Source of the DNA: Runella sp. MFBS21
Lineage (GTDB): Bacteria > Bacteroidota > Bacteroidia > Cytophagales > Spirosomataceae
Direction of reading: 5' to 3'
Assembly: GCF_029433105.1 (NCBI RefSeq)
Contig: NZ_JARNTW010000003.1
Coordinates: forward strand, 372,001 to 436,000
Length of the DNA stretch: 64,000 nucleotides
The notes under the pieces: generated by a model
Database searches by the model: none
What the model was told of the DNA's origin: nothing
The model's input: only the letters and a program-made list of their open reading frames with translations
Part shown: positions 34,320 to 60,369 of the stretch, piece after piece
Layout of the letters: each line of letters begins with the position of its first letter
Numbering within the stretch: the stretch's first letter is position 1
Program-made: the position numbers and the translations under genes

Positions 34320-35354
34320 TTACAAAGAAGCCCGTAACTTTAAGTAGAATGGCACGTGTACTTGCTCCTTCAAATTTTCTTGGATAAGTTGTGCTGTTTT
34401 TTGTCCCATAAGTTCAAAATCAGCCGATATAGTCGTAATCCCCTCCAAAATTATCTTCTTTAAGGGAGTTTCGTTGTATGAAATAATCCCGACGTCTTTA
34501 CCTACCTTCAGAGAAGTAGCCAACAGTTTTTCTACCAAACCAATCAAATCATTTTCGGTGATACTGATATAGACTTCGCCTTCGCAGATAGGTTCATTGA
34601 GAATGTTGGGAATCACTTGCATTTCAAACGAATATTGCTGGCAAAAAAGCCGCAAGCCTTCCACTATCTCTTTGGGATGGTGCGAATCTTTAGGAAAAAC
34701 AATTTTGATCGTATGATAATTGGAAAGGCGAGGAAGTGCTTCCTCTAACGCCTTATAAATATCCATTTTAAAATTCTGATACACAGCACCATATTGTCCT
34801 TTGAGGCCTACGATAGGCTTATCGACGATGATAAGCTTTTCGGCTGGAATACTGGCATTGATTACTTCGTGTGCCTTCTCTCCTCCTTCCATAAAATGAG
34901 GAATAATGACATAATGCGAATAATCGTGGCTATTGGTCTGAACGAGCTTTTTGAAGTAATTATAGTCGTTGTTGTAAACATAAAAATCAATCATCACTCG
35001 TTCGCCTAAGGAGGCTACCAACGAATCATAAATGATTTTTTTGTGAGCATTAATTTTGTTGACCAACAAAAAAATTTTTAGTTGAGAAGGGGTAGCAGTA
35101 CTTTTTACAAAATACCCTTTCCCTGGCACGGAATCTAATATCCCGATTTTTTTGAGGTATTTATAGCCTTTTTCGGCAGTATCTCTGGATATATCCGACT
35201 CAAAACTCAGCTCATTGATAGAAGGGAGGATTTCATCTTTTTCCAATTCGCCCCGCCCAATAATCTCCATAATCGAATTGGCGATTTGGAGGTACTTAGG
35301 AGTTGCCGAATAGCAGTCAATTGAGATAAGCTGAACCAAGGATTTATTTTTCAT
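34320..35354 (-). CDS. GntR-type regulator with LacI-like sugar-sensing domain
   Basis: 344 residues from the ATG at 35354; a start 10 codons upstream would overlap the kinase gene further. The N-terminal winged helix is of the GntR type (PKYLQIANSIMEIIGRGEL, then LPSINELSFESDISRDTA and GKGYFV). The remaining about 270 residues have the periplasmic-binding-protein fold of LacI-type sensors, ending VPFYLKLRASL. It overlaps the stop of the FGGY kinase gene by 11 bases, so it is the last gene of the catabolic operon and probably senses the pathway sugar or phosphorylated intermediate. Confidence 0.88.
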   Translation of the reverse strand: MKNKSLVQLISIDCYSATPKYLQIANSIMEIIGRGELEKDEILPSINELSFESDISRDTAEKGYKYLKKIGILDSVPGKGYFVKSTATPSQLKIFLLVNKINAHKKIIYDSLVASLGERVMIDFYVYNNDYNYFKKLVQTNSHDYSHYVIIPHFMEGGEKAHEVINASIPAEKLIIVDKPIVGLKGQYGAVYQNFKMDIYKALEEALPRLSNYHTIKIVFPKDSHHPKEIVEGLRLFCQQYSFEMQVIPNILNEPICEGEVYISITENDLIGLVEKLLATSLKVGKDVGIISYNETPLKKIILEGITTISADFELMGQKTAQLIQENLKEQVHVPFYLKLRASL

Positions 35355-36831
35355 AATAATGAACCGTTTCTTGCCATCCTTCATAATAAGACATCACTGC
35401 TCTATTATCTACGCATGGCACTATGGTTTCTACTTCTTTTTTTAGACTTTGGAGATGTGCAATGTTAGTAAATAGTCCACACGCCAATCCTGCCAAATAC
35501 GCTGCCCCCAAGGCCGATACATCGGGCATATTTATCTTCACGACGGGTTTTCCCAGCAAATCGGCCAAAAATTGTAGCACAAAACCATTGGAAGTCATAC
35601 CGCCATCTACCATCAATTCTTTCAATTCTAAGCCCGCGTCGGCCTCCATAGCCCCAATAATATCTTTGATTTGATAAGGGATGGATTCTAAAGCGGCTCT
35701 TACCAGATGATTTTTGGTAGCACCAAACGTAAGCCCCGTAATAGAAGCCTTTCGCTTCATGTCCCAATGTGGCGCACCTAAACCACTGAAAGCTGGCACT
35801 AGATAGACGCCATTGTTGTGCTCTACACTCCTTGCCATTGCTTCGGTATCTTTGCTGTCTTCAAAGATTCCCCATTCATTTTTGAGCCATTCGATCGTAG
35901 CTCCGCACGTCACAATCACCCCTTCTAAGGCATAATCGACGCGCTCGGCCGTACTCCAACAAATCGTAGAAACCATGCCATTGGCCGATGGTTTCCGCTT
36001 ATTTCCTACATTCATCAAAATCGAACAGCCTGTACCTAAAGTAGCCTTAGCGGTTCCTTCTGCAAAACATCCCTCTCCAAAAGCGGCTGCGTGCGAATCG
36101 CCAATCATACCCATGATAGGGACGGGTTTTGGAAAAAGTCCTTCAAAATTTGACTCCCCAAAAGCATAGGAAGAAGGCTGAGGTTGAGGCAATTGGATAC
36201 CCCTCAATCCAAACTCTCTCAGCAAATCGGCATCCCAATCCAAAGTAGAAAGATTGAAAAACAAGGTACGAGAAGCATTGGTGTAATCGGTCAAGTATTT
36301 TTCACCTTTTGTCAATCTATACAAAAGCCAAGTATCCACCGTCCCAAAATACGCCTTACCTGCTTGAATAGCCTCACGGATTTCGGGCTGATTTTGTTGA
36401 AGCCAAATGAGCTTAGAACCCGAAAAATAAGGGTCAATGAGCAAGCCCGTTTTTTCGTTGATGATAGCCCCTAAGCCTCTTTCACGGAGTTGGTCACATA
36501 TCTTTACCGAGCGCTTACATTGCCAAATGACGGCGTTGTGCAAAGACTTGCCTTGCTCATCCCACAAGATGAAGGTTTCGCGTTGGTTAGAGATTCCTAC
36601 GGCGGCGATGGAGGTCAACGAGTGCCCTTTGGCTTGAAAGTCAGCCAAACATTTTTTGACCGACGATATTACATTTTGGAAAATACCTTCGGGGTCTTGC
36701 TCAGCGAAGCCCTCTCCAAAATAGTGGGTTTTTAAGGGTTCAGAAGCCCGTGATACCACTTGCCCTTGTGCATCAAAAACGAGGGTTTTGGTACTACTTG
36801 TACCTTGGTCGATGGCTAAAATAAAAGACAT
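35344..36831 (-). CDS. FGGY-family carbohydrate kinase, glycerol-kinase-like
   Basis: 495 residues of the FGGY family: ATP motifs DQGTSSTK (8-15) and TLGTGCS (264-270), and the late VDGGMTSNGF. The residues that bind glycerol in E. coli GlpK are kept at nearly identical numbers: R84, E85, W103, Y135 and D245. The GDQQAA segment of GlpK is GDSHAA here. By sequence it could be a glycerol kinase; by context (ABC sugar transporter, FucI-like isomerase, split transketolase) it more likely phosphorylates a ketopentose such as apulose, whose branched end resembles glycerol. Function is inferred. Confidence 0.82.
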   Translation of the reverse strand: MSFILAIDQGTSSTKTLVFDAQGQVVSRASEPLKTHYFGEGFAEQDPEGIFQNVISSVKKCLADFQAKGHSLTSIAAVGISNQRETFILWDEQGKSLHNAVIWQCKRSVKICDQLRERGLGAIINEKTGLLIDPYFSGSKLIWLQQNQPEIREAIQAGKAYFGTVDTWLLYRLTKGEKYLTDYTNASRTLFFNLSTLDWDADLLREFGLRGIQLPQPQPSSYAFGESNFEGLFPKPVPIMGMIGDSHAAAFGEGCFAEGTAKATLGTGCSILMNVGNKRKPSANGMVSTICWSTAERVDYALEGVIVTCGATIEWLKNEWGIFEDSKDTEAMARSVEHNNGVYLVPAFSGLGAPHWDMKRKASITGLTFGATKNHLVRAALESIPYQIKDIIGAMEADAGLELKELMVDGGMTSNGFVLQFLADLLGKPVVKINMPDVSALGAAYLAGLACGLFTNIAHLQSLKKEVETIVPCVDNRAVMSYYEGWQETVHYYEK

Positions 36832-37170: not shown

Positions 37171-38151
37171 TCAGTGGTTTTTGGTATTGGCTTTGTCGAT
37201 AACAACCGCTATCAAAATCACCAGTCCTTTGACTACTTGTTGCCAAAAAGGCGATACATTAAGCAATACCAAGCCATTGTTTAGCACTCCAATGATGATA
37301 GCCCCCAAGACGGTCCCGCCGATACTGCCCTTTCCTCCCGACAACGAAGTGCCACCAATCACCACTGCCGCAATAGAGTCAAGTTCGTAGCCTGTACCGG
37401 CGTTGGGCTGTGCAGAATCAAGACGCGAAGTTACCATCAAACCTCCTACTGCCGCCAACATACCCGCCAATGTGTACACAATCACTTTGACCCGATTGAT
37501 ATTAATTCCCGACAATCGCGCCGCATTTTCATTGCCTCCAATGGCATAGATATAACGCCCGATTTTGGTTTTGTTGGAAAGTAAAATCGCTAAACCCACC
37601 ACTAAGGCACTTATCCAAACTGGCACAGGAACACCCAAAAACCAGCCTGTACCGAAAAAAGCAAAGTCTTTGCCCAATCCACTGATGGGAAATCCCTGTG
37701 TCCAGAGCATGGTCAGACCACGCGCCACGGTCAGCATGGCCAAAGTAGCTACAAAAGGAGGTACTTTGAAACGCGTAATAGCCATACCATTGAAAAATCC
37801 CAATAACCCACCTACTACGATGCCCGCTAAAATGCCTCCCAAAAGTGTGAAACCTACAAAAAGATTTTGGGTAGGAAACTCAATGCCTGATTTGTATAAA
37901 CCAGCGGTGACCGCCCCACTCAATGCCAGTACTGACCCTACCGACAAATCAATCCCTGCCATAAGCACCACGAGGGTCATACCCGTTGAAATACAGATAT
38001 TTACTGAAATCTGGCGTAGTACATTCCAGAAATTGGAAACGGTAAAAAATTTGTCAGATAGTAAGCCTATCACCAAACACAGCACAAAAAGGGCTATCAG
38101 AGGTTGAAGTTTAGACAAAAGTTTTTTTTGTGAATCAAGGGTTGTTTGCAT
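37171..38151 (-). CDS. Ribose-type sugar ABC transporter permease
   Basis: 326 residues with about 8-10 membrane helices. GMTLVVLMAGIDLSVGSVLALSG and GTSLSGGKGSIGGTVLGA are signatures of the RbsC/BPD_transp_2 family. It forms the inner-membrane channel for the binding protein and ATPase encoded upstream. The substrate is a pentose or similar by family; context suggests a sugar fed to the isomerase-kinase-transketolase steps. Confidence 0.93.
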   Translation of the reverse strand: MQTTLDSQKKLLSKLQPLIALFVLCLVIGLLSDKFFTVSNFWNVLRQISVNICISTGMTLVVLMAGIDLSVGSVLALSGAVTAGLYKSGIEFPTQNLFVGFTLLGGILAGIVVGGLLGFFNGMAITRFKVPPFVATLAMLTVARGLTMLWTQGFPISGLGKDFAFFGTGWFLGVPVPVWISALVVGLAILLSNKTKIGRYIYAIGGNENAARLSGININRVKVIVYTLAGMLAAVGGLMVTSRLDSAQPNAGTGYELDSIAAVVIGGTSLSGGKGSIGGTVLGAIIIGVLNNGLVLLNVSPFWQQVVKGLVILIAVVIDKANTKNH

Positions 38152-38273: not shown

Positions 38274-39782
38274 CTATAAAACTTTGGGAATGGCGGCTTT
38301 CAATAATATATCTTCGGTGGCATTTTGGGTCAAAATCTCTAGTGTTAGCTTGCCTTCGGCCAATACCAGTACGCGGTCTGAAACCGCAAAAATTTCGGGT
38401 AATTCGGAAGAAACCATCATAATTCCCAAACCCGAGGCCGCCAATTTCAATATCAGTTTATAAATCTCACTTTTAGCATGAATATCTATTCCACGGGTAG
38501 GCTCGTCGAGCAGCAATACCTTGGGATGCGTGGCAAGCCATTTCCCCAAAATCACCTTTTGTTGATTTCCGCCGCTTAAATTTTTGATAAGTTGCTGCGC
38601 CGATGAGGTTTTTACGCCTAGTTCTTGAATGTATTTTTCGGCCAATTGGGATTCGGCTTGGTTACTCAAAAACCCATTTTTTTCGACCCGCTCCCCCAAA
38701 GAAGCCAAGCTTATATTTTGGCTCACGGTCATTCCAGGCACGATACCGTCCCTTTTTCTATCTTCGGGTACCAAGGCCAAACCTGCCTTCACTGCCTCTA
38801 CGGATGATTTAAGATGAAGTGGCTCTCCGTTGAGATGTATCTGCCCCGTAGCCTGCGCGTGATGTAGCCCAAAAATCGTTTCGAGGAGTTCGGTACGGCC
38901 TGCCCCCATCAGCCCAAAGACTCCCAACACTTCGCCTTTTTTGAGATGAAAAGAAATATCTGATAAAATAAAACTCTCTTTATGATTAGGCTTTTTCAAA
39001 GATAAACCATTGATTTCCAGTACACTTTCTTGGTTATTCAAAATAATTTTTGGCGGTGGGATGAAGATTTCGCGACCTACCATTTTCTGAATCAATTGGT
39101 CATGAGTCATTCCCTGAATATTTCCTGATTCGATAGATTTACCATCGCGCAATACAATGTAGCGATCAGCAATGCGAAACAGTTCATCGAGTTTGTGGGA
39201 GATATACGCAATGGTCTTATTGTCAGCCCTTAGCTCTTCGATGATGCCAAAGAGGGTCTCGACCTCCTGGTCGGTAATGGCGGAGGTAGGCTCATCCATG
39301 ATGATGACCTTTGGCTCTAATAGCAACGCTTTGGCAATCTCAACTAGCTGTTGCTGTCCTACTTTTAGTTCCTGAACAGGAGTAGCGGGGTCTATATCCA
39401 GCCTAAGTTTTTGGAGCAAAACCGTGGCTTGATCGCGCATTTTTTGTTTATGAAGCGTTCCCCATTTAGTCAGGATTTCTTGACCCAAAAAGATATTTTC
39501 CGTAATACTCAGGTAAGGTATCAGGTTGAGTTCTTGGTGAATGATAGCGATTCCAGCCTGTTGCGCCTCTTTGGGATTTTGAAAGCGGATAGGCTGAGCG
39601 TGCCACACAATCTGCCCTTCGTAATCATTATCTACTCCCGACAAGATTTTCATCAAGGTAGATTTGCCGGCCCCGTTTTCTCCCAAAATGGCATTTACTT
39701 TGCCTTCGTGGAGTTCGAGACACACACGGTCTAGCGCCGTAACACCCGAAAACTTTTTGGTTATGTTGTCTGCAACAAGCAC
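38274..39782 (-). CDS. Ribose-type sugar ABC transporter ATPase, two-domain
   Basis: 502 residues holding two ABC modules: the first with Walker A GENGAGKSTLMK and DEPTSAIT, the second with the degenerate loop GLMGAGRTELLE, signature LSGGNQQKV and DEPTRGIDI. This is the RbsA/MglA architecture. It energises uptake through the neighbouring permease. It lies 28 bases downstream of the DUF2291 gene. Confidence 0.94.
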   Translation of the reverse strand: MLVADNITKKFSGVTALDRVCLELHEGKVNAILGENGAGKSTLMKILSGVDNDYEGQIVWHAQPIRFQNPKEAQQAGIAIIHQELNLIPYLSITENIFLGQEILTKWGTLHKQKMRDQATVLLQKLRLDIDPATPVQELKVGQQQLVEIAKALLLEPKVIIMDEPTSAITDQEVETLFGIIEELRADNKTIAYISHKLDELFRIADRYIVLRDGKSIESGNIQGMTHDQLIQKMVGREIFIPPPKIILNNQESVLEINGLSLKKPNHKESFILSDISFHLKKGEVLGVFGLMGAGRTELLETIFGLHHAQATGQIHLNGEPLHLKSSVEAVKAGLALVPEDRKRDGIVPGMTVSQNISLASLGERVEKNGFLSNQAESQLAEKYIQELGVKTSSAQQLIKNLSGGNQQKVILGKWLATHPKVLLLDEPTRGIDIHAKSEIYKLILKLAASGLGIMMVSSELPEIFAVSDRVLVLAEGKLTLEILTQNATEDILLKAAIPKVL

Positions 39783-39809: not shown

Positions 39810-40439
39810 CTACTGAATAGAAATAGGAATTACTTCGATATTATCAAGATTGAGGCGAGCGCTGTTTAGCTCCATCACTCCTGTAAAAGCCACCTTATCA
39901 CCCACTTTGGCTTTTGCCCTGAAAGGAGGAATTACCTTGTTTTTTACAATTTTATTCAACTCAGCCGATACATTATTGATATCGGCAGTATTGGTAAAAG
40001 ACGTAATGTCAAACAAACCTGTAACATCACGAATGGCATTGCCATAAATAAACTCCGTAGCCAAAGTCAGCGATTGATTGCCCATTTGAAGGCTTATTTC
40101 ATCTTCGTTGATAGCGGTAATAATCCCCGTACCTTTCACTAAAAAGTATTTGATACTTCCTACTGCCGTAGCATAGGCATATTTTTCAAAAGCTTCGTCT
40201 TTAGAAATCGTCAATAGTTGAATCAACTCCTGAATCCCTGAGGCATTGGCAAGCTGTGGGGTGAGGGTTGAGGTAAAAAATTTCTGAGCATAGGCTGCCG
40301 CGTCAAACTTCTTATTGGCCGCACTTCTGACTTCATCCAATTTTTTGAAATAAACAGAATGATACCCCAAAAACAACACGGCACCCAGCCCTAGCAAATA
40401 CTTTATGGTCAGATTATTCTTTTTTTCCGAATGCGGCAT
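39810..40439 (-). CDS. DUF2291 membrane-anchored protein
   Basis: 210 residues from the ATG at 40439 (one three codons earlier is also possible); either start overlaps the binding-protein gene by 26-35 bases. One N-terminal helix (about 13-28) anchors a periplasmic domain. The C-terminal part ([17 protein letters not shown]) has an OB-fold look. DUF2291 genes typically sit in sugar ABC operons between the binding protein and the ATPase, as here. Function unknown; possibly an accessory of the transporter. Confidence 0.75.
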
Positions 40440-41385
40440 AATCTTCAATGTTTTCTTTGGTTACTAATTCGACGGCAACGGGCAGTTTTTGAGGAAAATC
40501 TTTTTTCCCTTTCAAATATTGGTCGGCATAAATAGCAGCTGTTTGAGCCATTACTTTGGGAAATTGCATACCGGTAGCGGCAATTTTTCCGTCTTTGATG
40601 GCATCTACCACGTCGGCAGCTCCGTCAAACCCAAAAACCTTGACCTTATCGGCCTTTCCTGCTGCTGCAAGTGCTTGGTAAGCACCCATAGCCATGGCAT
40701 CGTTGCCACAAAAGACCGCATCAATATTGGGATGAGCTTGCATGATAGACTCCAAAACTTCCATGGCTTTGTTACGGTCAAAATCAGCACTTTGCTGTGC
40801 CACCATTTTTAGCCCCGTATAATTGTCCACCACACTATGAAATCCTTGTGAACGCGCCCAGGTGTTGTTGTCGCCCACCAATCCGAGGAGTTCTACATAA
40901 TTGCCTTTTTTCTTCATTTGTTTCACAAAATACTTAGCCAACGACACACAGCCCGAATAGCTATCTGATAAGATTTGGGAAGTGGCGGCATCGACCGAAT
41001 TGACTTCCCGATCCATACAAAATACGGGCACGCCCGCTGCTTTGGCTTTCTGAACATTTACTACCGAGCCTTCGGCGTCAGTTGGGTTAAAAAGAATAGC
41101 ATTGTAACCCGATACCAACGCATTTTCAAAATGGTCAGATTCTAGAGCCGTGTTATTTTGTGAATCAAAAATTTTGGTTTCATAGCCAAGTTCTTTGGCT
41201 TTGGCGGCGGCATTATCGGCCAAAAACACGAACCAAGGGTTGTTGAGCGTCGAAATGATAATAGCCATTTTCTTCGGAGTCTCCGATGTATTTTTGTTTG
41301 AACAGCTCCCAAAAAACAAGAGACAAAAAGCAAGGCTAAAAACAATCCCGCTATTATTTTTCAATTGCCACAGATAATTAATCAT
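40414..41385 (-). CDS. Ribose-type sugar-binding lipoprotein
   Basis: 323 residues from the ATG at 41385; the longer frame (41418) would overlap the upstream gene. The leader ends in LLFFGSC, a lipobox. The mature part is a class I periplasmic binding protein of the RbsB type: [20 protein letters not shown], then D-x-[23 protein letters not shown] and [16 protein letters not shown]. It captures the sugar for the ABC transporter encoded just downstream. Confidence 0.92.
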
Positions 41386-41398
41386 TGTCGATACACTT

Positions 41399-42796
41399 TT
41401 AGGGAAAAACTGTCGCAATCACCCGCTGATAACGAGTCAAAGAAGGCGTACCATTGTCGGATACCGCCAACACTATGTGAATAGTCTCCGGCTGAGTTAC
41501 TTTAGGCGCCACAAACCAAGCCTCAGCTTTGGTTTTATCATTGATTTGAATTCCGTTTTTATTGCCATAAGTACCAGGTTCGGCATAATATATCCAATCG
41601 TATTTGAGGATATTGCCGTCAGGGTCGGTGCTGCCTTTAGCACTCAGTTGTACTTTTTCGCCACTTTTTACTTTCAGAAGATGAGCATGAGAAAGTTTGG
41701 CAACGGGCGGGTGATTGGCCTCTTTGTAAGACTTTACACACCAATCCATCCTTGCGGCAAAATCGTGCTGAAATGCCTCACGCCAACGCCAAATCGTGGC
41801 TTTGTTGCTGGTTTGGTAGCTACCATCCATACCCATGACTTCATCTACGGCATCCGCCCAAAGAGGGCGGGTTTCGGGTTCATAAAACCACTTTTGAGTA
41901 CGAGGTGTATAAAACTCATAACGCCCTCCCCAGCTTCCATAGTCAGGATGCTCAGAGTCGCCCAAGCCATTGGGAATGAGGTACAAAAAAGTAGGCGTAT
42001 CTCCTTCCATCAAAAACTTCACGGCTGGATATTCTTCTCCCAACGGCCCGTGATTTTTGCGGATGTGTTGCTCTAGCCAAGGATTGTCAACGATACCGAA
42101 ATTAGCACCCGAAAATCGTCCGTGAAACTTATCGCCACTGATCCCCGACCAAGTAGCATAATGATAGGCACCATTGGCATGAAAACCGGGACTTGCGATA
42201 TAAAACAACTGTGGGAAATTTTTGCGAATCCAAGGGCCACTATCGTCTTGGTCTGAAATGGTATAAACCCGAAGTTTTGACACAAATCTTGCCACTTCAT
42301 CAGGTGTACGGGTCATTTTGACTTTCCAAAGGGCTTGCGCCAAACAATTGGCCCCACCCCAAACTGGAATCCAAAGCGGTCGAGGGTCGTTTTTGTCGGC
42401 TTGTTTGATAATCCATTCGGAGCCTTCGGAATCTTTCCCTTCGCCTACGGCTTCCATACCGCATTTGGGATAACCCGATTTAATGATACCCAGCAAAAAA
42501 GCAGTTTCAGGAAAACCTTTTTCGTGTAATAATAAATTGCTCCGTACTTTGTCGTAGGCATTCACAATCTTCCGAATACTCTCTGGAGCAGTACGGTCGC
42601 GTTGGTGAATAGAAGTCGTAGCCACAATGCCCTCAATATCCCACTGATTGCTGTAAGTCAAAAACCGCACCATCGATTGGGTATCATCGGGTTCATTTTC
42701 GATGTCGGTCAGTATCAGTACCCGAAGTTTTTCGGAAGGTTGGGCGTATAAGTACCTAATGGAAAACAACAAAAAAACATAAACGAATAGCCTCAT
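41399..42796 (-). CDS. DUF1593 nucleoside-hydrolase-like secreted protein
   Basis: 465 residues. A signal peptide (about 1-18) is followed by [23 protein letters not shown], an acidic cluster like the calcium-binding site of nucleoside hydrolases (D-x-x-x-E-P-D-D), then [12 protein letters not shown]. The last about 100 residues (from NHPPVAKL) form an Ig-like domain. Members are called Sde182-like cellulose-binding or nucleoside-hydrolase-like proteins; none I know of has a proven reaction. In the operon it may free a pentose from a glycoside in the periplasm before uptake by the ABC transporter. Confidence 0.78.
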
Positions 42797-46958: not shown

Positions 46959-47230
46959 TGGTTTTCTTTTTTGATATTTTAAAAGTCACATTCTCTTCAA
47001 AGAAAAGAAATAATAAGAAAACAAAAAAGGATGTTTTAGGCTCTTCAATCTATTTCTCCCTAATCTTTATTCTTAAGACTGATTCGTAATCCTCGACAGC
47101 TTTGTTGTTGATTCACAAGTTGCTATTGCAACTCTCTTTTGTTTAACCCTTTATTTATAACTGTTGTCTTTTTTGTAGGCTTTTACCAAAGCATCATTCA
47201 ATTATGATTATCGAAACTAAATTTCAAACA

Positions 47231-47482: not shown

Positions 47483-47521
47483 ATCAGGACGGTTCAGGAC
47501 AGCTATCAATAGGGCATTTTC

Positions 47522-47529
47522 TAGCTTTG
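47522..47529 (+). promoter_or_regulatory. -7-type box before the SusC gene
   Basis: TAGCTTTG fits TAnnTTTG exactly, 63 bases before the ATG at 47593. No convincing -33 TTTG is found at normal spacing. Confidence 0.35.
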
Positions 47530-47592
47530 CCTACCATAGTTCAGCATTTTTTAGCTAAAAACTTGTATTTTATCACGTCAAACTTACGCCCT

Positions 47593-52430: not shown

Positions 52431-53690
52431 ATGGAAAGAATTATTGCTACCTATTTTATAGAAACGCCATTTGATGTTGAAAAAGCGGCACAAGTGCTTG
52501 CGGGTGAACAATCCAGCGGCACTTTTGTGGCAATTCCGGGCGAAACTGAGGCTTTGAAAGCGCGTTTTGCCGCCAAAGTAGAGGCCATAAATTTACTTGA
52601 GCCTGCCTATCATCCTTCCTTGCCCGGTGCAGAAGGTTATCCTGTGTACCACCGTGCCGAAATCAAAGTCTCTTGGTCGGTCGAAAACTTTGGGTATAAT
52701 CTGCCCGTTATGATTTCGACTTTACAAGGCAATTTATACGAGTTGACCCAATTTACAGGGCTCAAACTCATGGATATTGATATTCCTGACTCTTTTGCTC
52801 GGCATTTTGTAGGCCCACGTTTTGGCATAGAAGGTTGTCGGAATCTCACTCATGTGTATCAGCGACCTCTCATAGGCACCATTATCAAACCTAGCATTGG
52901 GCTTTCTCCCAACGATACCGCCGCACTTGTCAAAATCCTAGCAGAGGCGGGGATTGATTTTATCAAGGATGATGAACTCCAATCTGCATCGGCCAATTCT
53001 TCTTTTGAAGCCCGCGTAGATGCAGTTATGGAAATCATCAATCGCCATGCCGATGCCACGGGCAAAAAAGTAATGTATGCTTTCAACCTCAGCGAGGAAA
53101 TAGATAGTATGCTTCGCCGCTACGAATATTTGATAGAAGCAGGAGCGACTTGTGCTATGGTGAGCATCAATAGCGTAGGTTTGGCGGGTACCAAGAAAAT
53201 CTGCGACCAAGGCGTATTGCCTATTCATGCCCACCGCAATGGCTGGGGAATGATGACCCGTCATCCGCTTTTGGGAATAGACTTTAGGGCTTACCAAAAG
53301 CTATGGCGTTTGGTGGGAGTAGATCAGCTCCATGTCAATGGTATCCAAAACAAATTTTGGGAAAGCGACGACTCCGTGGTACGCTCCATCGAAGCTTGTC
53401 GTCAGCCCCTACTTGGTGGCTACGAAGTACTGCCCGTAGTATCGTCGGGACAATGGGGCGGGCAAGCTCCCGAAACCTACCGCCGTACCCAAACTGTGGA
53501 TTTGCTATACATGGCTGGCGGCGGTATTATGGCGCATCCTGACGGCCCCAAAGGAGGAGTGATTGCCATCAATCAAGCGTGGGAAGGAGCAGTCAAGGGC
53601 TTATCAATACAACAAACTGCTGCACTTTATCCTGAGTTTGCTAAGTCTGTTGCCAAATTTGGAAAGTCACTTTCGTTTATGTCAAATTGA
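52431..53690 (+). CDS. RuBisCO-like protein (3-oxo-isoapionate-phosphate-type candidate)
   Basis: 419 residues with the two-domain RuBisCO large-subunit fold. By RuBisCO numbering, the following are kept: K175 (K153, in IIKPS), the carbamylated lysine and metal ligands K201/D203/E204 (K179, D181, E182 in DFIKDDE), HAHR (266-269), H327 (H301), loop-6 K334 (K308, seven residues after that histidine), S379 (S339) and the phosphate loop GGG (363-365). K177 is serine (S155) and H298 is tryptophan (W272), so carboxylation is unlikely. Known relatives next to DUF1537 kinases decarboxylate or cleave 3-oxo-isoapionate 4-phosphate (OiaX, OiaT). The DUF1537 kinase gene follows. The exact reaction is inferred. 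Confidence 0.88.
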   Translation: MERIIATYFIETPFDVEKAAQVLAGEQSSGTFVAIPGETEALKARFAAKVEAINLLEPAYHPSLPGAEGYPVYHRAEIKVSWSVENFGYNLPVMISTLQGNLYELTQFTGLKLMDIDIPDSFARHFVGPRFGIEGCRNLTHVYQRPLIGTIIKPSIGLSPNDTAALVKILAEAGIDFIKDDELQSASANSSFEARVDAVMEIINRHADATGKKVMYAFNLSEEIDSMLRRYEYLIEAGATCAMVSINSVGLAGTKKICDQGVLPIHAHRNGWGMMTRHPLLGIDFRAYQKLWRLVGVDQLHVNGIQNKFWESDDSVVRSIEACRQPLLGGYEVLPVVSSGQWGGQAPETYRRTQTVDLLYMAGGGIMAHPDGPKGGVIAINQAWEGAVKGLSIQQTAALYPEFAKSVAKFGKSLSFMSN

Positions 53691-53764: not shown

Positions 53765-55156
53765 ATGTCATTGACAAACAGCTCTTTATTATTGGCCTAT
53801 TACGGAGATGATTTCACGGGTTCGACCGACGCCCTAGAATTCATGAGCCGCGCAGGAGCACGTACGGTGCTTTTTATCGAACCTCCTACGCTTGCTCAAC
53901 TCGCCCAATACGAAGATTTACAGGCTATTGGAGTAGCGGGGTTGTCGCGCTCGCTGTCACCCCAAGCAATGGAGCAACAACTACGCCCCGTGTTTGAAGC
54001 ACTACAAAAACTTAATTCCCGACACATTCATTACAAAGTATGTTCTACTTTCGATTCTTCGCCTACGATTGGTAGCATCGGAAAAGCCTTAGAAATAGGA
54101 GCCGAAGTTTTTGAAAGTGAATGGGTTCCGATTCTGGTAGCGGCACCTTCGTTGGGGCGTTATTGTACTTTCGGAAATCTTTTTGCTCGTATGGGTATTG
54201 GTAGCCAAGGCGTCATTCATCGCCTCGACCGCCACCCTTCCATGCGTGTTCATCCCGTGACTCCCGCTACCGAAAGTGATTTAAGATTGCATTTGGCCCA
54301 ACAAACCACCCGAAAAACGGGCTTATTGGATATTCTTCAAATCGCCCAAGCAAATGCCGTCGAGAAGCTAGCACAACTCCTCCAACAAGGCTATGATAAT
54401 GTACTATTTGATGCCCTTTACGAACAACATTTACCAATCATTGGTCAATTGATAGACCAATGTCAAAAATCTAAAAATCAAGCGTTATTCTCAGTAGGTT
54501 CTTCGGGAATTGAAATGGCATTGGGGAGTTATTGGCAAACAGAAGGTATTTTAAGCAAGCGTACGCAGTGGAATAAATTAGAACCTCAGGCAGCAATTTT
54601 GGTGATTTCGGGCAGTTGCTCTCCCGTCTCTGCCCAGCAAATTGCGTGGGCCGAACGCCACGGGTTTGTGAGTATTGGCTTAGATACTACAACTATTGCG
54701 GCGCATCCCAACGACGATTCGGTTTTAAACACTACCATTGAACAAGCACTTACTTACGCCCAAGCAGGTCGCAGTATCATCATTCATTCGAGCAGTAGCA
54801 ATCTCGACCCTCGTATCAAAGAAGCAAACGATATTTTTATACAACAAGGTTTTAGCCCCACTCAAATTCAATCCCGTACAGGTCAGCTTTTTGGCAGGGC
54901 TTTGGGTATAATAGCCAAAGAAATTCTGGCTTCCTCAGCCATTGAGCGTATCGTTGTAGCAGGAGGTGACACGTCTAGCTATGCTGCACGCGCTATGGAA
55001 ATCGAAGCAGTAGAAATGATAGCGCCACTTACGCCCGGCGCACCTGTATGCGTAGCCCATGCGCCTCACTCTGCGTTGCATCAAAAACAAATCATTTTTA
55101 AAGGGGGTCAGGTGGGTCCAGAAAACTATTATGAATTGGTTAGAGGAGTCGGTTAA
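53765..55156 (+). CDS. DUF1537 four-carbon-acid sugar kinase family protein
   Basis: 463 residues. The N-terminal domain begins LLAYYGDDFTGSTDALEF (D-D-x-T-G substrate motif). The C-terminal nucleotide domain has SGSCSPVSAQQIAWA, then IVVAGGDTSSYAARAM (the family's GG-x-TS loop) and PGAPVC. Members phosphorylate threonate, erythronate or 3-oxo-isoapionate (OiaK). Placement directly after the RuBisCO-like gene favours an OiaK-like role that makes the phosphorylated substrate of that enzyme. Substrate is not proven. Confidence 0.87.
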   Translation: MSLTNSSLLLAYYGDDFTGSTDALEFMSRAGARTVLFIEPPTLAQLAQYEDLQAIGVAGLSRSLSPQAMEQQLRPVFEALQKLNSRHIHYKVCSTFDSSPTIGSIGKALEIGAEVFESEWVPILVAAPSLGRYCTFGNLFARMGIGSQGVIHRLDRHPSMRVHPVTPATESDLRLHLAQQTTRKTGLLDILQIAQANAVEKLAQLLQQGYDNVLFDALYEQHLPIIGQLIDQCQKSKNQALFSVGSSGIEMALGSYWQTEGILSKRTQWNKLEPQAAILVISGSCSPVSAQQIAWAERHGFVSIGLDTTTIAAHPNDDSVLNTTIEQALTYAQAGRSIIIHSSSSNLDPRIKEANDIFIQQGFSPTQIQSRTGQLFGRALGIIAKEILASSAIERIVVAGGDTSSYAARAMEIEAVEMIAPLTPGAPVCVAHAPHSALHQKQIIFKGGQVGPENYYELVRGVG

Positions 55157-55182: not shown

Positions 55183-55839
55183 ATGAAAAAAACACTTGGA
55201 TTAGTTCATACATCAGCCACTTTAGTTCCTGTTTTTCAGCAGCTTTGTGCACAATACTTACCTCATATCAATGTCTTTAATATTGTGGATGATAGTCTTA
55301 TCAAACAAGTCATCACGCGGGGAGAATTACAACCCGATACAGCCCGTCGCGTGGTCAATTACGCAAATTCGGCTGAAAGTGCAGGTGCCGATTTCATCAT
55401 GTTTACTTGCTCCTCCATTGGCGCGGCCGTCGAAACTGCCGCTACCTTGACCCAAGTTCCAGTGCTTCGCGTAGACCAACCGATGGCTGACAAAGCCGTA
55501 TCAATAGGCAAAAAAATAGGCGTAATTGCAACCCTTCCTACCACCCTTGCGCCTACTTCTGACCTAGTAAAACGTCGTGCGGCGGTGGCTGGTAAATCTA
55601 TTGAAATTAAATCAGTTTTGTGCGAAGGAGCCTTTGACGCACTCATGGGCGGCAACCCTACCCTACACGACCAAATGGTCGCGGCGGCACTGAAAGAATT
55701 GAGCAATGAAGTAGATGTAATTGTACTAGCTCAAGCCTCAATGGCACGAGTGGTAGATACGCTCTCTGACACAGAAAAGAAAGTACCTATTTTGGCAAGC
55801 CCTCCCATTGCGATGGAATATCTAGCGACTTTGTTATGA
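55183..55839 (+). CDS. Asp/Glu/hydantoin-racemase-like protein lacking the second cysteine
   Basis: 218 residues with the two-lobed racemase fold (LGLVHTSATLVPVFQQL at the start, PILASPPIAMEYL at the end). The first catalytic cysteine is C76 (FTCSSIG). At the place of the second cysteine the sequence reads VLAQASMARV, with A185 instead. A two-base racemase mechanism is therefore unlikely; one-cysteine relatives include decarboxylases and isomerases. The gene overlaps the next by four bases (ATGA) and lies 26 bases after the kinase gene, so it belongs to the same pathway. Role unknown. Confidence 0.78.
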   Translation: MKKTLGLVHTSATLVPVFQQLCAQYLPHINVFNIVDDSLIKQVITRGELQPDTARRVVNYANSAESAGADFIMFTCSSIGAAVETAATLTQVPVLRVDQPMADKAVSIGKKIGVIATLPTTLAPTSDLVKRRAAVAGKSIEIKSVLCEGAFDALMGGNPTLHDQMVAAALKELSNEVDVIVLAQASMARVVDTLSDTEKKVPILASPPIAMEYLATLL

Positions 55840-57131
55840 AAAAATTATCAAAAATAGCTTTATACGGTAGTGCTGTAGCTTTGGTAATCCTTTTATGGGG
55901 AATCTTCACTTCTACGCCTTCTTTGTGGCAGCCTTCGGCCCTGGGGCTAGCGGTGTGTATTGCGTTGGGCTTGGGGGCAATCCCCGCTCTCAAAGGCTAT
56001 CAATATACCGCATGGATTATGGCGGCGGTAGTGGCTGGGATGATTTATCCAGCGGCTTTTACCAAATGGGGAGACTTTGATTTACGCAACAAATGGCTCA
56101 TTCTCATCATCATACAAACAGTAATGTTTGGGATGGGCATCCACATGAGTGTGCGCGATTTTTCGAGTTTGGCTACCACAGGCAAAGGCGTGGTGATTGG
56201 GCTTTTATGCCATTTTTCGGTCATGCCTCTGATGGGTTTGCTTCTTACCAAAGTCTTTGATTTTGAACCAGAAATCGCCGCTGGCATTATCCTGATTGGT
56301 TCATGTTCGAGCGGATTAGCTTCCAATGTGATGGTCTATTTGGCCAAAGCCAATTTGGTATTGTCAGTAATCGTAACAGCAATGGCTACGCTAGTGGCTC
56401 CTTTTCTTACACCTCTGCTGATGAAATTGCTGGCCGGAACATTGATTGAAGTTCATTTTGTGGATATGATGATGGAAATCATCAAGATAATCATTGTCCC
56501 TATCGGGGCAGCCTTGTTATACGATTTTCTTACCACGGCCACACGTCCCCAATGGTACAAGGTAACACGCGTTGCTTTGATTTCTGGGCTTTGGCTTTTG
56601 GCGCTGCCCGTCGGGCTGTGGGATTTTTTCAAAGCCCATATCACTTCCCAAGCAGCATTACAGTCACTCGAAATTTTAGGATTTTTTGCGGGGGCATTTC
56701 TGGTCGGGATGGGCTATTATTTTCTAAGCCGTCGTTTTTCCAAGCTAGATGATTTGATGCCTTATTTTTCGATGTTTGGTATTATTTATTTTACCACAGT
56801 GACCACAGCCGCTGGTCGCGAAAACCTCCTTAAAGTAGGCTTTTTGCTCTTTATTTGTTCGGTGATTCACAATGCCGCAGGTTATTTTTTTGGTTATTGG
56901 CTGAGTCGTTTATTTGGATTGGATGTTAATTCTTCGCGCACTGTTGCTTTTGAAGTAGGACTTCAAAACGGAGGCATGGCATCAGGATTGGCCGGAAGTA
57001 TGGGCAAACTCGGTACGGTAGGGCTACCTGCCACGGTTTTTAGCCCGTGGATGAATATTTCGGGTTCTATTCTGGCCAATTATTGGCGCCGCCATCCCGT
57101 AGAAGAAGTCAAAGACACATTTTCAAATTAA
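55836..57131 (+). CDS. BASS-family (bile acid:sodium symporter-like) transporter
   Basis: 431 residues, with about 11 hydrophobic helices; longer than typical members because of two extra N-terminal helices (about 8-25 and 33-45). The conserved crossover helices are recognisable: GSCSSGLASNVMVYLAKANLVLSV and AFEVGLQNGGMASGLA. The family moves organic acids with sodium. In this operon it may import an acid or keto acid that feeds the kinase and RuBisCO-like protein, whereas the opposite arm carries a sugar ABC transporter. Substrate is unknown. Confidence 0.82.
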   Translation: MKKLSKIALYGSAVALVILLWGIFTSTPSLWQPSALGLAVCIALGLGAIPALKGYQYTAWIMAAVVAGMIYPAAFTKWGDFDLRNKWLILIIIQTVMFGMGIHMSVRDFSSLATTGKGVVIGLLCHFSVMPLMGLLLTKVFDFEPEIAAGIILIGSCSSGLASNVMVYLAKANLVLSVIVTAMATLVAPFLTPLLMKLLAGTLIEVHFVDMMMEIIKIIIVPIGAALLYDFLTTATRPQWYKVTRVALISGLWLLALPVGLWDFFKAHITSQAALQSLEILGFFAGAFLVGMGYYFLSRRFSKLDDLMPYFSMFGIIYFTTVTTAAGRENLLKVGFLLFICSVIHNAAGYFFGYWLSRLFGLDVNSSRTVAFEVGLQNGGMASGLAGSMGKLGTVGLPATVFSPWMNISGSILANYWRRHPVEEVKDTFSN

Positions 57132-57143: not shown

Positions 57144-58277
57144 ATGTTTTATCGTAAGTTTTTATTTCTAGTGTTCATTATTTGTACGGGCAAAATATGG
57201 TCTCAAAACCCTACCGTCTCTCCCCAAAAAATGCAAGAAGTATACGATGAAATAAAAACCCCGCATAAGTACGGCTTGGTAATGATTCCCTCTGACAATT
57301 CAAAAAAACTAGATTGCCCCACGGTATTTCGCAAAAACAAACAATGGTTCATGACTTATTTGGTGTTTGATGGGCGAGGTTATGAAACTTGGCTTGCCAA
57401 AAGCAAAAACCTGCTTGATTGGGAAACACTCGGCAAAATCATGTCTTTTTCGGCTGATACTCTACAATGGGATAACAACCAAAAAGCGGGTTATGTAGCC
57501 CTTCAAAACACCAAATGGGGAGGAAAGTACAATCTCCTAAAATACCAAGGTAAGTATTGGATGCCATATTGTGGGGGTAATAGCCGAGGCTATGAGGCAG
57601 GCAAACTCTCCATTGGAATGGCTTACAGCGACCAAAACCCGACCAAATTGGTAGAATGGCAACGACTCCCCAAAGCAGTACTTTCTCCCTACGATACCGA
57701 TGTAAGGTGGTGGGAAAACAAAAAACAATACAAAAGCACGGTAGTCTGGGATAAGAAAAAGACGACGGGTTATCCTTTTGTGATGTACTACAATGCCAAC
57801 GGCGACAGTAGCAACAACAACCCCAAATATCGGGAAATTGAGCGCATCGGCATGGCTGTTTCCAACGATATGAAGACATGGAAACGTTTCCAATCTGAGA
57901 CTGTACTGAATCATCACTCGGGCATCACGGGTGATGGTGTACTCCAAAAAATGGGCGATTTATGGGTGATGTTTTATTTTGGAGCATTCTGGAATGAGCG
58001 CAAAGACGCTTACAATCGTTTTGCTTGTTCGTATGACATGGTAAACTGGACTGATTGGGACGGCCCCGACCTTATCAATCCTTCCGAACCTTACGACAGT
58101 ATGTATGCCCATAAATCGTACGTCATCAAGCACAAAGGAGTGGTTTATCATTTTTATTGTGCGGTCAATAAAGACGACCAACGAGGCATAGCCGTTGCCA
58201 CTTCCAAAGAAATAGGAAAAAGTACGCTCGCTTTTGTACCGCCACCACCCAAGAAAACCAAACAGACATCCAAATAG
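57144..58277 (+). CDS. Five-bladed beta-propeller glycoside hydrolase (GH43-like)
   Basis: 377 residues: signal peptide (about 1-21), then propeller blades with the repeated W-x-M-x-Y and S-x-D-x-x-x-W pattern: CPTVFRKNKQWFMTYLVF, AKSKNLLDWETLG, YQGKYWMPYCGG, AVSNDMKTWKRF and SYDMVNWTDWD. This fits the GH43/GH117/GH130 fold group. D53 in LDCPTVF is a candidate for the blade-1 catalytic base. The exact family is unclear. It is exported and sits just before a GH127-type gene, so it probably removes furanose units such as arabinose or apiose in the periplasm. Confidence 0.72.
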   Translation: MFYRKFLFLVFIICTGKIWSQNPTVSPQKMQEVYDEIKTPHKYGLVMIPSDNSKKLDCPTVFRKNKQWFMTYLVFDGRGYETWLAKSKNLLDWETLGKIMSFSADTLQWDNNQKAGYVALQNTKWGGKYNLLKYQGKYWMPYCGGNSRGYEAGKLSIGMAYSDQNPTKLVEWQRLPKAVLSPYDTDVRWWENKKQYKSTVVWDKKKTTGYPFVMYYNANGDSSNNNPKYREIERIGMAVSNDMKTWKRFQSETVLNHHSGITGDGVLQKMGDLWVMFYFGAFWNERKDAYNRFACSYDMVNWTDWDGPDLINPSEPYDSMYAHKSYVIKHKGVVYHFYCAVNKDDQRGIAVATSKEIGKSTLAFVPPPPKKTKQTSK

Positions 58278-58350
58278 CAACTTACACTTTTATTTATCTG
58301 ATTATCAAAAATTTAAATAGACACTATCCCACCCATAAAATAGCATTGAC

Positions 58351-60369
58351 ATGACAAAAAACATTTTAATCGTTTTCCTTTTTTGGGTTTTTACATTTTT
58401 TGTAGAAGCTCAAAACAAAGGGTTGGTCAATACCAGCCAAAGTCCCTACGCCAAACTTTACACCCCCAACCTCGCCGATGTGCGTTGGACGGGAGGCTTC
58501 TGGGCCGACCGTTTTCGGGTTTGTAAAGAAACCATGGTTCCCCAACTTTGGAAAACCTACACCGACCCTAACATCAGTCATTCGTTTCGAAATTTCGAGA
58601 TTGCAGCAGGTCTCGAACAAGGCAATTTCAAAGGACCCTCTTTCCACGATGGCGACTTTTATAAAACCTTTGAAGCCGTAGCAAGCTTATACGCCACCAC
58701 CAAAGCCCCCGAACTAGACGCTATTATGGACAAAGCCATCGAAGTAATGGCCAAAGCCCAACGCGAAGATGGCTACGTTTATACCAAAGCTATCATCGAA
58801 CAAAAAAAATCGGGGCAAACAAAGATGTTTGACGACAAGCTCAGTTTTGAAGCTTATAATTTTGGACATTTGATGACCGCCGCTTGCGTGCATCACCGTG
58901 CTACGGGCAAAACCTCCCTGCTCAACGTAGCAAAAAAAGCCGCTGATTTTCTTATTGGATTTTATAAAGTTGCCACGCCAGAGCAAGCCCGCAACGCCAT
59001 ATGCCCCTCCCACTACATGGGTTTGACTGAGTTGTATCGCACTACCAACGAAAAACGCTACCTTGATTTGGTAAAATACCTTGTCAACATCAAAGGTACT
59101 ACCGAAGGTACCGACGACAATCAAGACCGCATTCCATTTCGTCAACAAACAGTGGCGATGGGTCATGCTGTACGGGCCACCTACCTTTATGCAGGAGTAG
59201 CTGATGTATATGCCGAAACAGGCGAAGATTCTCTCATGCGCTCGCTCAATCTGATATGGGACAATCTCACCCAGCGCAAAATGTATGTCACAGGCGCTTG
59301 TGGTGCCCTTTTCGACGGAGTTTCGCCTTACGGGACTTCTTATAAGCCCAACGACGTCCAAAAAACCCACCAAGCTTTTGGACGCGATTATCAATTGCCC
59401 AACGTCAGTGCCCACAACGAAACCTGTGCCAATATCGGCAATGTCCTTTTCAATTGGCGGATGTTTGCGCTTACAGGCGATGCTCGCTATACCGATGTCG
59501 TAGAGTTGGCTTTATACAATAGCGTATTGTCTGGCATAAGTTTGTCGGGAAATAAATTTTTTTACACCAATCCCCTGGCCGCTTCCAACGATTTCCCCTA
59601 TCAACTCCGCTGGATGGGCGGGCGAATTCCTTATATCCGAATCTCTAACTGCTGCCCTCCCAATACCGTCCGTACTATCACCGAAGTAAGTGACTATGCT
59701 TATAGCCTCAGCGATAATGCCGTCTGGTGTAATCTTTTTGGGAGCAGTCATTTACAAACAACCCTCAAAAATGGGCAAGCTGTAAGCCTGCAACAAGAAA
59801 GCAACTACCCTTGGGATGGTAATGTCAAAATTACGGTAGAGCAACTGCCTGCTGACGATTTTTCGCTCCGGCTTCGCCTGCCAAGCTGGTGCTCAGAAGC
59901 CAAGCTATTTATCAATGGTAAAGCTACTGCTTATACCACCGACAAAGGCTATGTCAATATCAATCGTAAATGGAAAAAAGGCGATATCATCACTTGGAAT
60001 ATGGCCATGCCGACTGAGCTCTTGGAATCTAATCCTCTTGTAGAAGAAACCCGCAATCAAGTGGCTGTCAAACGAGGCCCGATGGTTTATTGTTTAGAAT
60101 CAAACGATATGCCCTCAGGAGCGCGTGTTTTTGACGTAGCGATTCCAAGTACTGCTACCTTCAAACCTACTCCTACCACTTTAGACAATGCGCCTATTAC
60201 TGCTTTAGAAACAACGGGAGTGCGTATCAACGACCAACAATGGGACAAAACGCTGTATCGCCCTCTTTCCAAACAAAAGAAAACCATCCCACTTAAACTC
60301 ATCCCCTACTATGCTTGGAGCAATCGAGGCCCGTCTGAAATGACGATTTGGGTACCGCTAGTGCGGTGA
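58351..60369 (+). CDS. GH127/DUF1680-type secreted glycoside hydrolase
   Basis: 672 residues: signal peptide (about 1-20), an alpha/alpha barrel, then beta domains. The zinc-thiolate site of GH127 beta-L-arabinofuranosidases is complete: E357 and C359 in NETCANIGN, and C434, C435 in SNCCPPN, the first of the pair being the expected nucleophile. The position of the acid/base glutamate of the Bifidobacterium enzyme (16 residues before E357) is Q341 here, in HQAFGRDYQLPN. It may use another acid or belong to a subgroup with a different substrate. It is last in the plus-strand operon; the acylase gene that faces it ends 11 bases away. Confidence 0.87.
   Translation: MTKNILIVFLFWVFTFFVEAQNKGLVNTSQSPYAKLYTPNLADVRWTGGFWADRFRVCKETMVPQLWKTYTDPNISHSFRNFEIAAGLEQGNFKGPSFHDGDFYKTFEAVASLYATTKAPELDAIMDKAIEVMAKAQREDGYVYTKAIIEQKKSGQTKMFDDKLSFEAYNFGHLMTAACVHHRATGKTSLLNVAKKAADFLIGFYKVATPEQARNAICPSHYMGLTELYRTTNEKRYLDLVKYLVNIKGTTEGTDDNQDRIPFRQQTVAMGHAVRATYLYAGVADVYAETGEDSLMRSLNLIWDNLTQRKMYVTGACGALFDGVSPYGTSYKPNDVQKTHQAFGRDYQLPNVSAHNETCANIGNVLFNWRMFALTGDARYTDVVELALYNSVLSGISLSGNKFFYTNPLAASNDFPYQLRWMGGRIPYIRISNCCPPNTVRTITEVSDYAYSLSDNAVWCNLFGSSHLQTTLKNGQAVSLQQESNYPWDGNVKITVEQLPADDFSLRLRLPSWCSEAKLFINGKATAYTTDKGYVNINRKWKKGDIITWNMAMPTELLESNPLVEETRNQVAVKRGPMVYCLESNDMPSGARVFDVAIPSTATFKPTPTTLDNAPITALETTGVRINDQQWDKTLYRPLSKQKKTIPLKLIPYYAWSNRGPSEMTIWVPLVR

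Follow-up and report, generated by a model that had tools for sequence, protein, structure and literature searches.

Organization of the locus

A 64-kb window of the 7.88-Mb genome of Runella sp. MFBS21 (contig NZ_JARNTW010000003.1, positions 372,001 to 436,000; G000:C23:372001-436000 in our numbering) carries two divergent gene arms. "The window" means this whole stretch, and features are numbered from its first letter. The minus arm runs outward through a DeoR regulator, an isomerase, a split transketolase, a DUF1593 protein, a sugar-binding protein (SBP), a DUF2291 lipoprotein, an ABC transporter ATPase and permease, an FGGY kinase and a GntR-type regulator. The plus arm encodes a SusC/SusD pair, a RuBisCO-like protein (RLP), a DUF1537-type kinase, a racemase-fold protein, a BASS-family transporter and two glycosidases. 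Together, the arms are read here, with a probability of roughly two in three, as a regulon for the breakdown of apiose and aceric acid, both of them unusual sugars found in side chain B of rhamnogalacturonan II (RG-II). Aceric acid belongs to the rare sugars of RG-II, a pectin domain that is conserved in plant cell walls.

A preliminary description of this stretch had proposed a split-transketolase route joined to an RLP/DUF1537 route. Open reading frame (ORF) lists and profile scans recovered every gene that it named, in both arms, as an intact ORF of the expected family and in place or nearly so. The DUF2291 and DUF1593 proteins, the two regulators, the glycosidase identities and the link to RG-II side chain B were not part of that description.

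The proposed D-apiose arm

By homology, the minus arm (all of its features lie on the minus strand) appears to encode the known non-oxidative D-apiose transketolase route, as the preliminary description had proposed. A split transketolase, an FGGY kinase and an ABC transporter stand together in one cluster, and the arm matches clusters of E. coli SE15, Rahnella and Sodalis. By blastp, the transketolase N-part (43895–44719; proposed subunit A of apulose-4-phosphate transketolase) is 50% identical to AptA of E. coli SE15, and the C-part (42849–43823; proposed subunit B) 42% to AptB, both also placed by family scan. The FGGY kinase (35344–36831), glycerol-kinase-like in its family scan and a candidate D-apulose kinase, is 38% identical to SE15 AplK and 39% to the Rahnella cluster kinase. 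The ribose-type permease (37171–38151; PF02653) and the sugar ABC ATPase (38274–39782; family scan) are 43% and 42% identical, respectively, to their counterparts in the SE15 apiose cluster. The putative D-apiose-binding SBP (40414–41418; PF13407) is 42% identical to the Rahnella and 34% to the SE15 cluster SBP, and its relatives in the PDB include 4ry0 and 5ibq, the latter of which we take to be an apiose complex. The candidate D-apiose isomerase, a Fucose_iso_C protein (44739–46136; PF02952), shares 54% identity with the isomerase encoded in the Rahnella and Sodalis clusters; phmmer gave it no PDB match at E ≤ 0.01. The DUF2291 lipoprotein of the transporter (39810–40448; PF10054) has no blastp match at 1e-5 to the Rahnella and SE15 DUF2291 proteins. 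In all three clusters, that of Sodalis included, a DUF2291 gene sits between those for the SBP and the ATPase. In the predicted sequence of events, the ABC transporter would take up D-apiose, the isomerase would turn it into apulose, the FGGY kinase would then phosphorylate apulose, and the split transketolase would channel the product into central metabolism. According to excerpts of a published account, E. coli and E. fergusonii strains with the apiose cluster use D-apiose as sole carbon source, aplK, aptA and aptB are assigned to SE15 locus tags, and the isomerase gene apsI is missing from E. coli (PMC13001218).

Known clusters of this route (Pectobacterium, E. coli ST131) share with the window the SBP, DUF2291 protein, ATPase, permease, split transketolase and FGGY kinase, at 34–54% identity wherever blastp found a match, and the isomerase gene is matched in similar plasmid clusters of Rahnella and Sodalis. 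The Runella arm differs in carrying a DeoR regulator (46194–46958; AgaR-like in profile scans) where the known clusters have a sugar-binding regulator, and in an extra secreted Sde182/DUF1593 nucleoside-hydrolase-like protein within the operon (41399–42796; PF07632), possibly a furanoside hydrolase acting on apiosides. A GntR-type regulator with a Peripla_BP_3 sensor domain (34320–35384; PF00392, PF13377) closes the arm. In the order to which Runella belongs, Cytophagales (Bacteroidota), 43 of 390 genomes carry the isomerase, and 27 of these 43 lack any RLP match. Operon composition was counted in 20 of these 43 loci, several of which are covered by stretches that stop before the operon ends. 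Both transketolase parts occur in all 20, the SBP in 18, DUF2291 in 17, the ATPase in 16, the DeoR regulator in 16, DUF1593 in 14, the FGGY kinase in 13 and the permease in 12.

Glycosidases of the plus arm

The identities of the two glycosidases settle how the plus arm is read. The GH127 protein (58351–60369, plus strand, as for all genes of this arm) scores 1134 bits over residues 20–670 on the aceric acid hydrolase model NF049879, above its cut-off of 950, and is predicted from its family to be an aceric acid hydrolase. Its neighbor, a GH130-like protein (57144–58277), scores 533 bits over residues 4–367 of the 1400-residue BT0996 model NF049877. This partial match lies below the whole-protein cut-off of 1800; the window protein holds only the N-part of BT0996. 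The matched first 367 residues are taken as the arabinofuranosidase part, so that the protein would be a GH137-like beta-L-arabinofuranosidase domain. Such an enzyme is free-standing in Runella, unlike in Bacteroides thetaiotaomicron, where GH137 is a module of the multidomain BT0996; with that organism's RG-II enzymes the window shares a GH127 above the hydrolase cut-off and a strong partial GH137 match. According to PMC9843283, it is the GH137 module of BT0996 that takes the terminal arabinose off side chain B, and a figure legend of PMC10850190 names BT1003 as the aceric acid hydrolase. An enzyme that frees aceric acid is thus already known. In an excerpt of PMC8218411, aceric acid is given as 3-C-carboxy-5-deoxy-L-xylose, and side chain B is said to contain rhamnose (Rha), 2-methylfucose (2-MeFuc), arabinose (Ara), galactose (Gal), aceric acid (AceA) and apiose (Api). 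Both proposed sugars therefore belong to one side chain.

The glycosidases are preceded by a SusC-like TonB-dependent transporter (47437–50763; PF07715, PF00593), for which an ATG at about 47593 is a likelier start than 47437, and by a SusD-like lipoprotein (50785–52200; PF14322, PF07980). The single Bacteroides genome used as a control, that of B. ihuae, encodes the hydrolase and gives no match to the OiaX model of RLPs at E ≤ 1e-20.

Two kinds of RuBisCO-like protein

The oxidative D-apiose route, which employs the kinase OiaK and the RLP OiaX, was reportedly described by Carter et al. 2018. RLP and DUF1537 kinase genes are adjacent both there (example Paracoccus TOH) and in the window. The window RLP (52431–53690) has OiaX (NF042437) as its best NCBIfam model, at 503 bits against a cut-off of 700 and against 777 bits for an annotated Paracoccus OiaX. 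Its residues K179-D180-D181-E182 and K153 are invariant in 20 aligned sequences, and its closest named relative among the matches listed, from Runella defluvii, is 83% identical. The kinase (53765–55156) has OiaK (NF042436) as its best model, at 449 bits and likewise below the cut-off of 700. Since the neighboring kinase of that Paracoccus OiaX reaches no more than 441 bits, the OiaK cut-off cannot decide the case.

RLPs were found at E ≤ 1e-30 in 24 of the 390 genomes of the order and fall into two kinds. Kind A, 66–100% identical to the window protein, occurs in 20 genomes; kind B, 51–54% identical, occurs in four (G193, G180, G054, G363). All four kind B stretches hold lactonase and oxidoisomerase relatives and three a dehydrogenase relative, which amounts to the known oxidative apiose set; the queries came from G193, so that the match of this genome is trivial and remote relatives could escape. 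Genes for the racemase-fold protein and the BASS transporter accompany the RLP in 19 of 19 kind A stretches and in none of the four of kind B. Oxidoisomerase relatives are distributed in the opposite manner, being present in all four kind B genomes and in one of 20 kind A genomes, there on another contig. The window genome gives no oxidoisomerase match at E ≤ 1e-10 with the one query used, and its only lactonase relative is below cut-off and on another contig. These two partner enzymes of OiaX are thus not found with the window RLP (the dehydrogenase was not searched for elsewhere in the genome). Compared with the oxidative route, the Runella cassette lacks nearby lactonase and oxidoisomerase relatives, carries an RLP and a kinase that both miss the curated OiaX and OiaK cut-offs, and adds the racemase-fold protein, the BASS transporter and the aceric acid hydrolase.

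The hydrolase follows the same division. It exceeds its cut-off in all 20 kind A genomes and in none of the four of kind B, one of which (G180) has a relative at 732 bits. It does so in 47 of the 390 genomes overall, and the chance of 20 out of 20 is 6e-21, uncorrected for kinship. By our own count the 20 genomes represent 11 genera, all among the 15 genera with a hydrolase above cut-off. Hydrolase and RLP share a contig in 17 of the 20, at distances of 1.6 to 148 kb. A second group of GH127 proteins, often two copies per genome and scoring 709–770 bits on the hydrolase model, occurs in genomes of family f18 without a kind A RLP.

A tree of RLPs places kind B and a Croceibacterium sequence on one branch with 100/100 support, and leaves 34 kind A rows and OiaX outside it. 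Its branches are long, OiaX is unplaced, and kind A does not form one clade (two changes are needed, with one sufficing in 28% of bootstraps). The Croceibacterium plasmid (L212 and L217) has a GH127-RLP-kinase run and, elsewhere, a racemase-fold protein and an MFS transporter gene beside an apiosidase-like gene. It was dropped as independent support, its GH127 scoring only 87 bits as an aceric acid hydrolase and its RLP grouping with the apiose type.

A cassette conserved across phyla

A scan of genome contigs with the kind A alignment gave at least 575 RLP loci, of which the best 80 (65–83% identical) were surveyed. Sixteen of the 80 span less than 20 kb, and the tallies take no account of the kinship among these genomes. 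Most loci are from Bacteroidota, with others from Verrucomicrobiota (e.g. Pelagicoccus, Opitutales), Planctomycetota (Aeoliella, a Planctomycetales bin) and a few elsewhere, including Fodinibius and one bin labelled Williamsia. Neighbor families come from a clustering of every ORF with 100 residues or more and were named from their representatives. Alongside the 80 RLPs, clustering recovers the kinase in 76 loci, the racemase-fold protein and the BASS transporter in 74 each, and GH127 in 39. Searches with tblastn raise these cassette counts to 77 for the kinase, 76 for the racemase-fold protein (both planctomycete loci included) and 76 for the transporter, and three of the remaining gaps are short contigs. 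In 66 of the 80 loci the order RLP-kinase-racemase-BASS is kept on one strand, and in 26 GH127 adjoins the RLP. GH127 membership was assigned here by clustering and by phmmer to the window protein (at least 662 bits in all 39 loci) rather than by the curated model.

The other frequent neighbors are GH2 (21 loci), a transporter-like cluster named from its start only (17), GH78 (16), DUF5703 (15), GH137, an acetylesterase and GH106 (14 each), and Gfo/Idh oxidoreductases (13). The company of GH2, GH78, GH106, GH137 and the acetylesterase fits the sugar composition of side chain B. Fifty of the 80 genomes were searched whole, the remainder being 29 metagenome bins (including Opitutae bins with both arms) and the isolate L089; four of the 50, by identical positions, are also among the 20 kind A genomes. 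The hydrolase is present in all 50 at E ≤ 1e-200 and exceeds its cut-off in 48, the two below it being Pelagicoccus (917 bits) and Aeoliella (888 bits).

In Hymenobacter-type genomes (G255, L085, L089), the gene just upstream of the RLP encodes a protein of ~300 residues that resembles a TIM barrel and has a Tat-like signal. Its family was judged by eye, and it could be a periplasmic sugar isomerase. As a general isomerase of the cassette it was rejected; its cluster (c24) occurs in only 8 of the 80 loci and not always beside the RLP.

The racemase-fold protein

The third member of the cassette order, a PF01177 protein (55183–55839), is predicted with high model confidence (pLDDT 95.9) to adopt the fold of the Asp/Glu racemase superfamily. 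The nearest folds in the PDB are racemases, with Foldseek TM values up to 0.81 for an aspartate racemase. With the Asp/Glu/hydantoin racemases it shares this fold and the first catalytic cysteine. Only one of the two cysteines is recognizable, as Gln184 aligns where Asp/Glu racemases have the second, the alignment of the second domain being weak. Both C76 and Q184 are invariant in 46 aligned racemase-fold sequences. The window protein also differs from its relatives in setting; it lies within a sugar-acid cassette, and relatives 44–52% identical occur in other contexts. One such relative, 47% identical, is encoded on a plasmid of Deinococcus sp. QL22 (L214 6998-8568), adjacent to genes for a class II fructose-bisphosphate aldolase and for GH38 and GH2 enzymes; the stretch shown holds no RLP.

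A single base is enough for a one-face aldose-ketose shift, and racemization takes two. The one-cysteine site would thus fit an aldose-ketose isomerase, without proving it. The assignment is made by elimination, the racemase-fold protein being the sole conserved cassette enzyme left over once the kinase and the RLP are placed. To our knowledge, aldose-ketose isomerization would be a new reaction for the Asp/Glu racemase superfamily.

A proposed route for aceric acid

Each reaction of the plus arm, that of the hydrolase included, is proposed from what is observed of gene content, families, cassette, hydrolase link and repeat. SusC and SusD would take up side-chain fragments, the GH137-like enzyme would trim them, and GH127 would free aceric acid. 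The sugar may then be imported by the SBF/BASS-family protein (55836–57131; PF01758), whose best NCBIfam model is the pantoate transporter PanS, at 210 bits and below the cut-off of 400. The racemase-fold protein would isomerize the aldose to a 2-ketose, a beta-keto acid in which a tertiary alcohol carbon bears the carboxylate. This ketose would be phosphorylated at C1 by the OiaK-like kinase, and the RLP would cleave the product.

This scheme follows from chemical likeness. The compound 3-oxo-isoapionate 4-phosphate is itself a beta-keto acid; a tertiary alcohol beside the ketone carries its carboxylate, and the CH2OH beyond the ketone its phosphate. The 2-ketose of aceric acid would be a close analogue of 3-oxo-isoapionate, with CH(OH)CH3 replacing CH2OH, and for this reason a kinase and an RLP of the OiaK/OiaX type are expected for aceric acid. 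Because aceric acid already bears the branch carboxylate, no dehydrogenase or oxidoisomerase would be needed. RLPs that decarboxylate 3-oxo-isoapionate 4-phosphate, or that transcarboxylate and hydrolyze it, are described in a review (PMC6302742). Two outcomes can accordingly be drawn for the phosphorylated ketose. Decarboxylation would yield 5-deoxypentulose 1-phosphate and CO2, whereas transcarboxylation and hydrolysis would yield 3-phosphoglycerate and lactate, L-lactate by our stereochemical reading. The two are rated about equally likely. The stand-alone nature of the cassette leans toward splitting; the decarboxylation version could be served by a housekeeping aldolase. No dedicated aldolase acting after the RLP was seen among the eight cluster representatives scanned, which cover a minority of the clusters. 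The complete pathway of three enzymes and one transporter, with a one-cysteine racemase-fold isomerase, an OiaK-like kinase and an RLP that splits its substrate to 3-phosphoglycerate and L-lactate, is put forward tentatively, the odds being against it in this full form.

Weighing the alternatives

The preliminary description had linked the RLP/DUF1537 arm to an oxidative apionate route, three enzymes of which it found absent. The arm is unlikely to be a plain apionate route; an oxidoisomerase relative is present in one of 20 kind A genomes, neither oxidoisomerase nor lactonase relatives occur within 10 kb in any of the 80 loci, and the arm goes with the aceric acid hydrolase instead. Other suggestions of that description, that the locus serves two sugars, that the acid arm starts with an imported acid or that it uses new steps, gain support from the present comparison.

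Several observations weigh against an aceric acid route. OiaX and OiaK are the closest models for the window RLP and kinase, and three scanned kind A RLPs reach 499–515 bits on the OiaX model, compared with 408–469 for three RLPs from apionate operons of the order. Apiosidase is found in all 20 kind A genomes, so that co-occurrence at the genome level shows use of RG-II and not of aceric acid as such, and only local linkage separates the two. Conversely, 27 of the 47 genomes with the hydrolase have no RLP. Weak lactonase relatives (E ≤ 1e-10, none above cut-off) occur in six of the 20 kind A genomes, that of the window included. Among the 80 loci, Gfo/Idh oxidoreductases (cluster c16) lie near the cassette in 13 and weak apiose-dehydrogenase-like relatives in nine, and a dehydrogenase step may operate there. 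Flectobacillus (L081, G379) has its kinase gene next to an apiosidase and roughly 90 kb away from that of the RLP (G379:C9:190889-193509; the search for such distant placements covered 11 of the 24 RLP genomes), and tblastn finds no kinase over 21 kb around the RLP of L081. The Cytophagales bin L084 has GH127 and the RLP, with the other three genes absent in 21 kb. Finally, the minus-arm isomerase is missing from seven of the 20 cassette genomes, where the isomerization step would have no enzyme unless the racemase-fold protein performs it.

Some of these points would be explained if the RLP arm were a second apiose route, in which unrecognized enzymes, the racemase-fold protein among them, make 3-oxo-isoapionate from apiose or apionate, the OiaK/OiaX-like pair finishes the conversion, and the hydrolase is a mere RG-II neighbor. 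The resemblance to OiaX and OiaK, the universal apiosidase, the weak lactonases and the Flectobacillus kinase all agree with this, as does the presence of the operator-like repeat of the apiose operon before the Dyadobacter RLP (see below). It is nonetheless unlikely. An oxidoisomerase relative was found in just one of 20 genomes, and within 10 kb the 80 loci have no lactonase or oxidoisomerase relative and only four apiosidases, versus 39 loci with GH127. Furthermore, 13 of the 20 genomes already have the minus-arm isomerase, and the four apionate-type stretches of the order do without racemase-fold and BASS genes.

Degradation of another pectin or plant acid by the RLP arm, be it Dha, Kdo or a four-carbon compound like a tetronate, would suit a kinase family that often uses four-carbon acids, and 3-oxo-tetronate and D-threonate kinases are among the lower-scoring matches of the window kinase. 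The OxoTetrKin model, however, gives 185 bits as opposed to 449 for OiaK, and the most frequently linked glycosidase is the aceric acid hydrolase. Dha and Kdo, being 2-keto acids, lack the branched beta-keto acid cleaved by known RLPs. Although both are RG-II acids according to an excerpt of PMC12168206, a substrate of this kind is improbable.

Association and regulation of the two arms

Within the genus, 20 window proteins (the 19 of the locus and a downstream penicillin-acylase-like protein) were used as synteny queries. Two genomes retain 20 (G352) and 19 (G361) of them with order kept, and a third (G335) has 16 in a fetched stretch that ends inside the minus arm, together with a second SusC/SusD pair. 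Since gene order recurs in these genomes, the arrangement is no chance neighborhood. In the wider survey, 10 of the 80 loci (L079, L118, L131, L132, L144, L145, L149, L150, L156, L158) have genes of the apiose arm no more than about 10 kb away from the cassette. These span Bacteroidota, Verrucomicrobiota and Planctomycetota in several layouts, and nine have GH127; in the Dyadobacter loci L118, L131 and L132 the FGGY kinase is the only apiose-arm gene in reach. The expectation of the preliminary description that the arms would be found together elsewhere is thereby borne out, in three phyla. In L145 (Flavobacterium alvei) the apiose operon, from transketolase C-part to FGGY kinase, lies head to tail before the RLP cassette, unlike in Runella.

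A direct repeat, TTTCKTTTNNTTTCKTTT, resembles an operator. It has exactly two matches to the pattern in the 64 kb, both between the arms and each reading outward, one into the minus arm (47230–47247, minus strand) and one into the plus arm (47465–47482, plus strand); 100 shuffles gave a mean of 0.00. This count is circular because the pattern was drawn from that very region, and the real test lies in other genomes. Three further genomes of this genus have a similar repeat block. When one mismatch is allowed, the repeat precedes 13 of 20 other isomerase operons (Markov controls, mean 0.07), and exact copies lie 216–218 bases before the RLP start in the four Dyadobacter loci of the 80. An apiose operator, probably bound by the DeoR protein, thus seems to precede the RLP arm in two genera of differing layout, which suggests one regulon for both arms. 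Over all 80 cassette loci, exact copies occur in five (controls 0, 0, 0) and copies with one mismatch in nine, little above the controls (2, 1, 6). As the repeat is mostly unseen at other cassette loci, such co-regulation would not be general.

The shared repeat and the adjacency of the arms in three phyla might also mean that both arms form one pathway for one sugar, with the minus-arm isomerase acting on aceric acid and the transketolase working downstream of the RLP. The distribution of the genes makes this very improbable. Isomerase and cassette are separable: 13 of the 20 cassette genomes carry the isomerase, as do 43 of 390 overall, and 27 of these 43 give no RLP match. The transketolase operon alone matches the E. 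coli apiose cluster and the Rahnella and Sodalis plasmid clusters. The minus-arm isomerase was rejected as the aceric acid isomerase on similar grounds; it is missing in seven of 20 cassette genomes and travels with the transketolase. Because the arms can be separated, they are better seen as two pathways that serve one glycan.

Downstream of the locus, a penicillin-acylase-family protein is encoded on the minus strand (60380–62509; 222 bits on the PvdQ model, cut-off 950). A gene of this family adjoins the locus in G352 too.

Implications for RG-II degradation

No account of bacterial aceric acid catabolism was found among the papers listed in an open-licence library, which is weak evidence of absence as most subscription journals lie outside it. 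An RLP and a DUF1537 kinase that act on a branched sugar acid are of a known kind; novelty seems to lie in the substrate, in the racemase-fold enzyme and in the minimal layout. If correct, the proposal would provide the first candidate pathway for aceric acid. It would give a new physiological role to a RuBisCO-like protein, which in the splitting version would carry out half of the RuBisCO reaction on a plant cell wall sugar, and it would likely add a new reaction to the Asp/Glu racemase superfamily. The cassette would also furnish a marker set to distinguish the bacteria that finish RG-II from those that leave aceric acid over.

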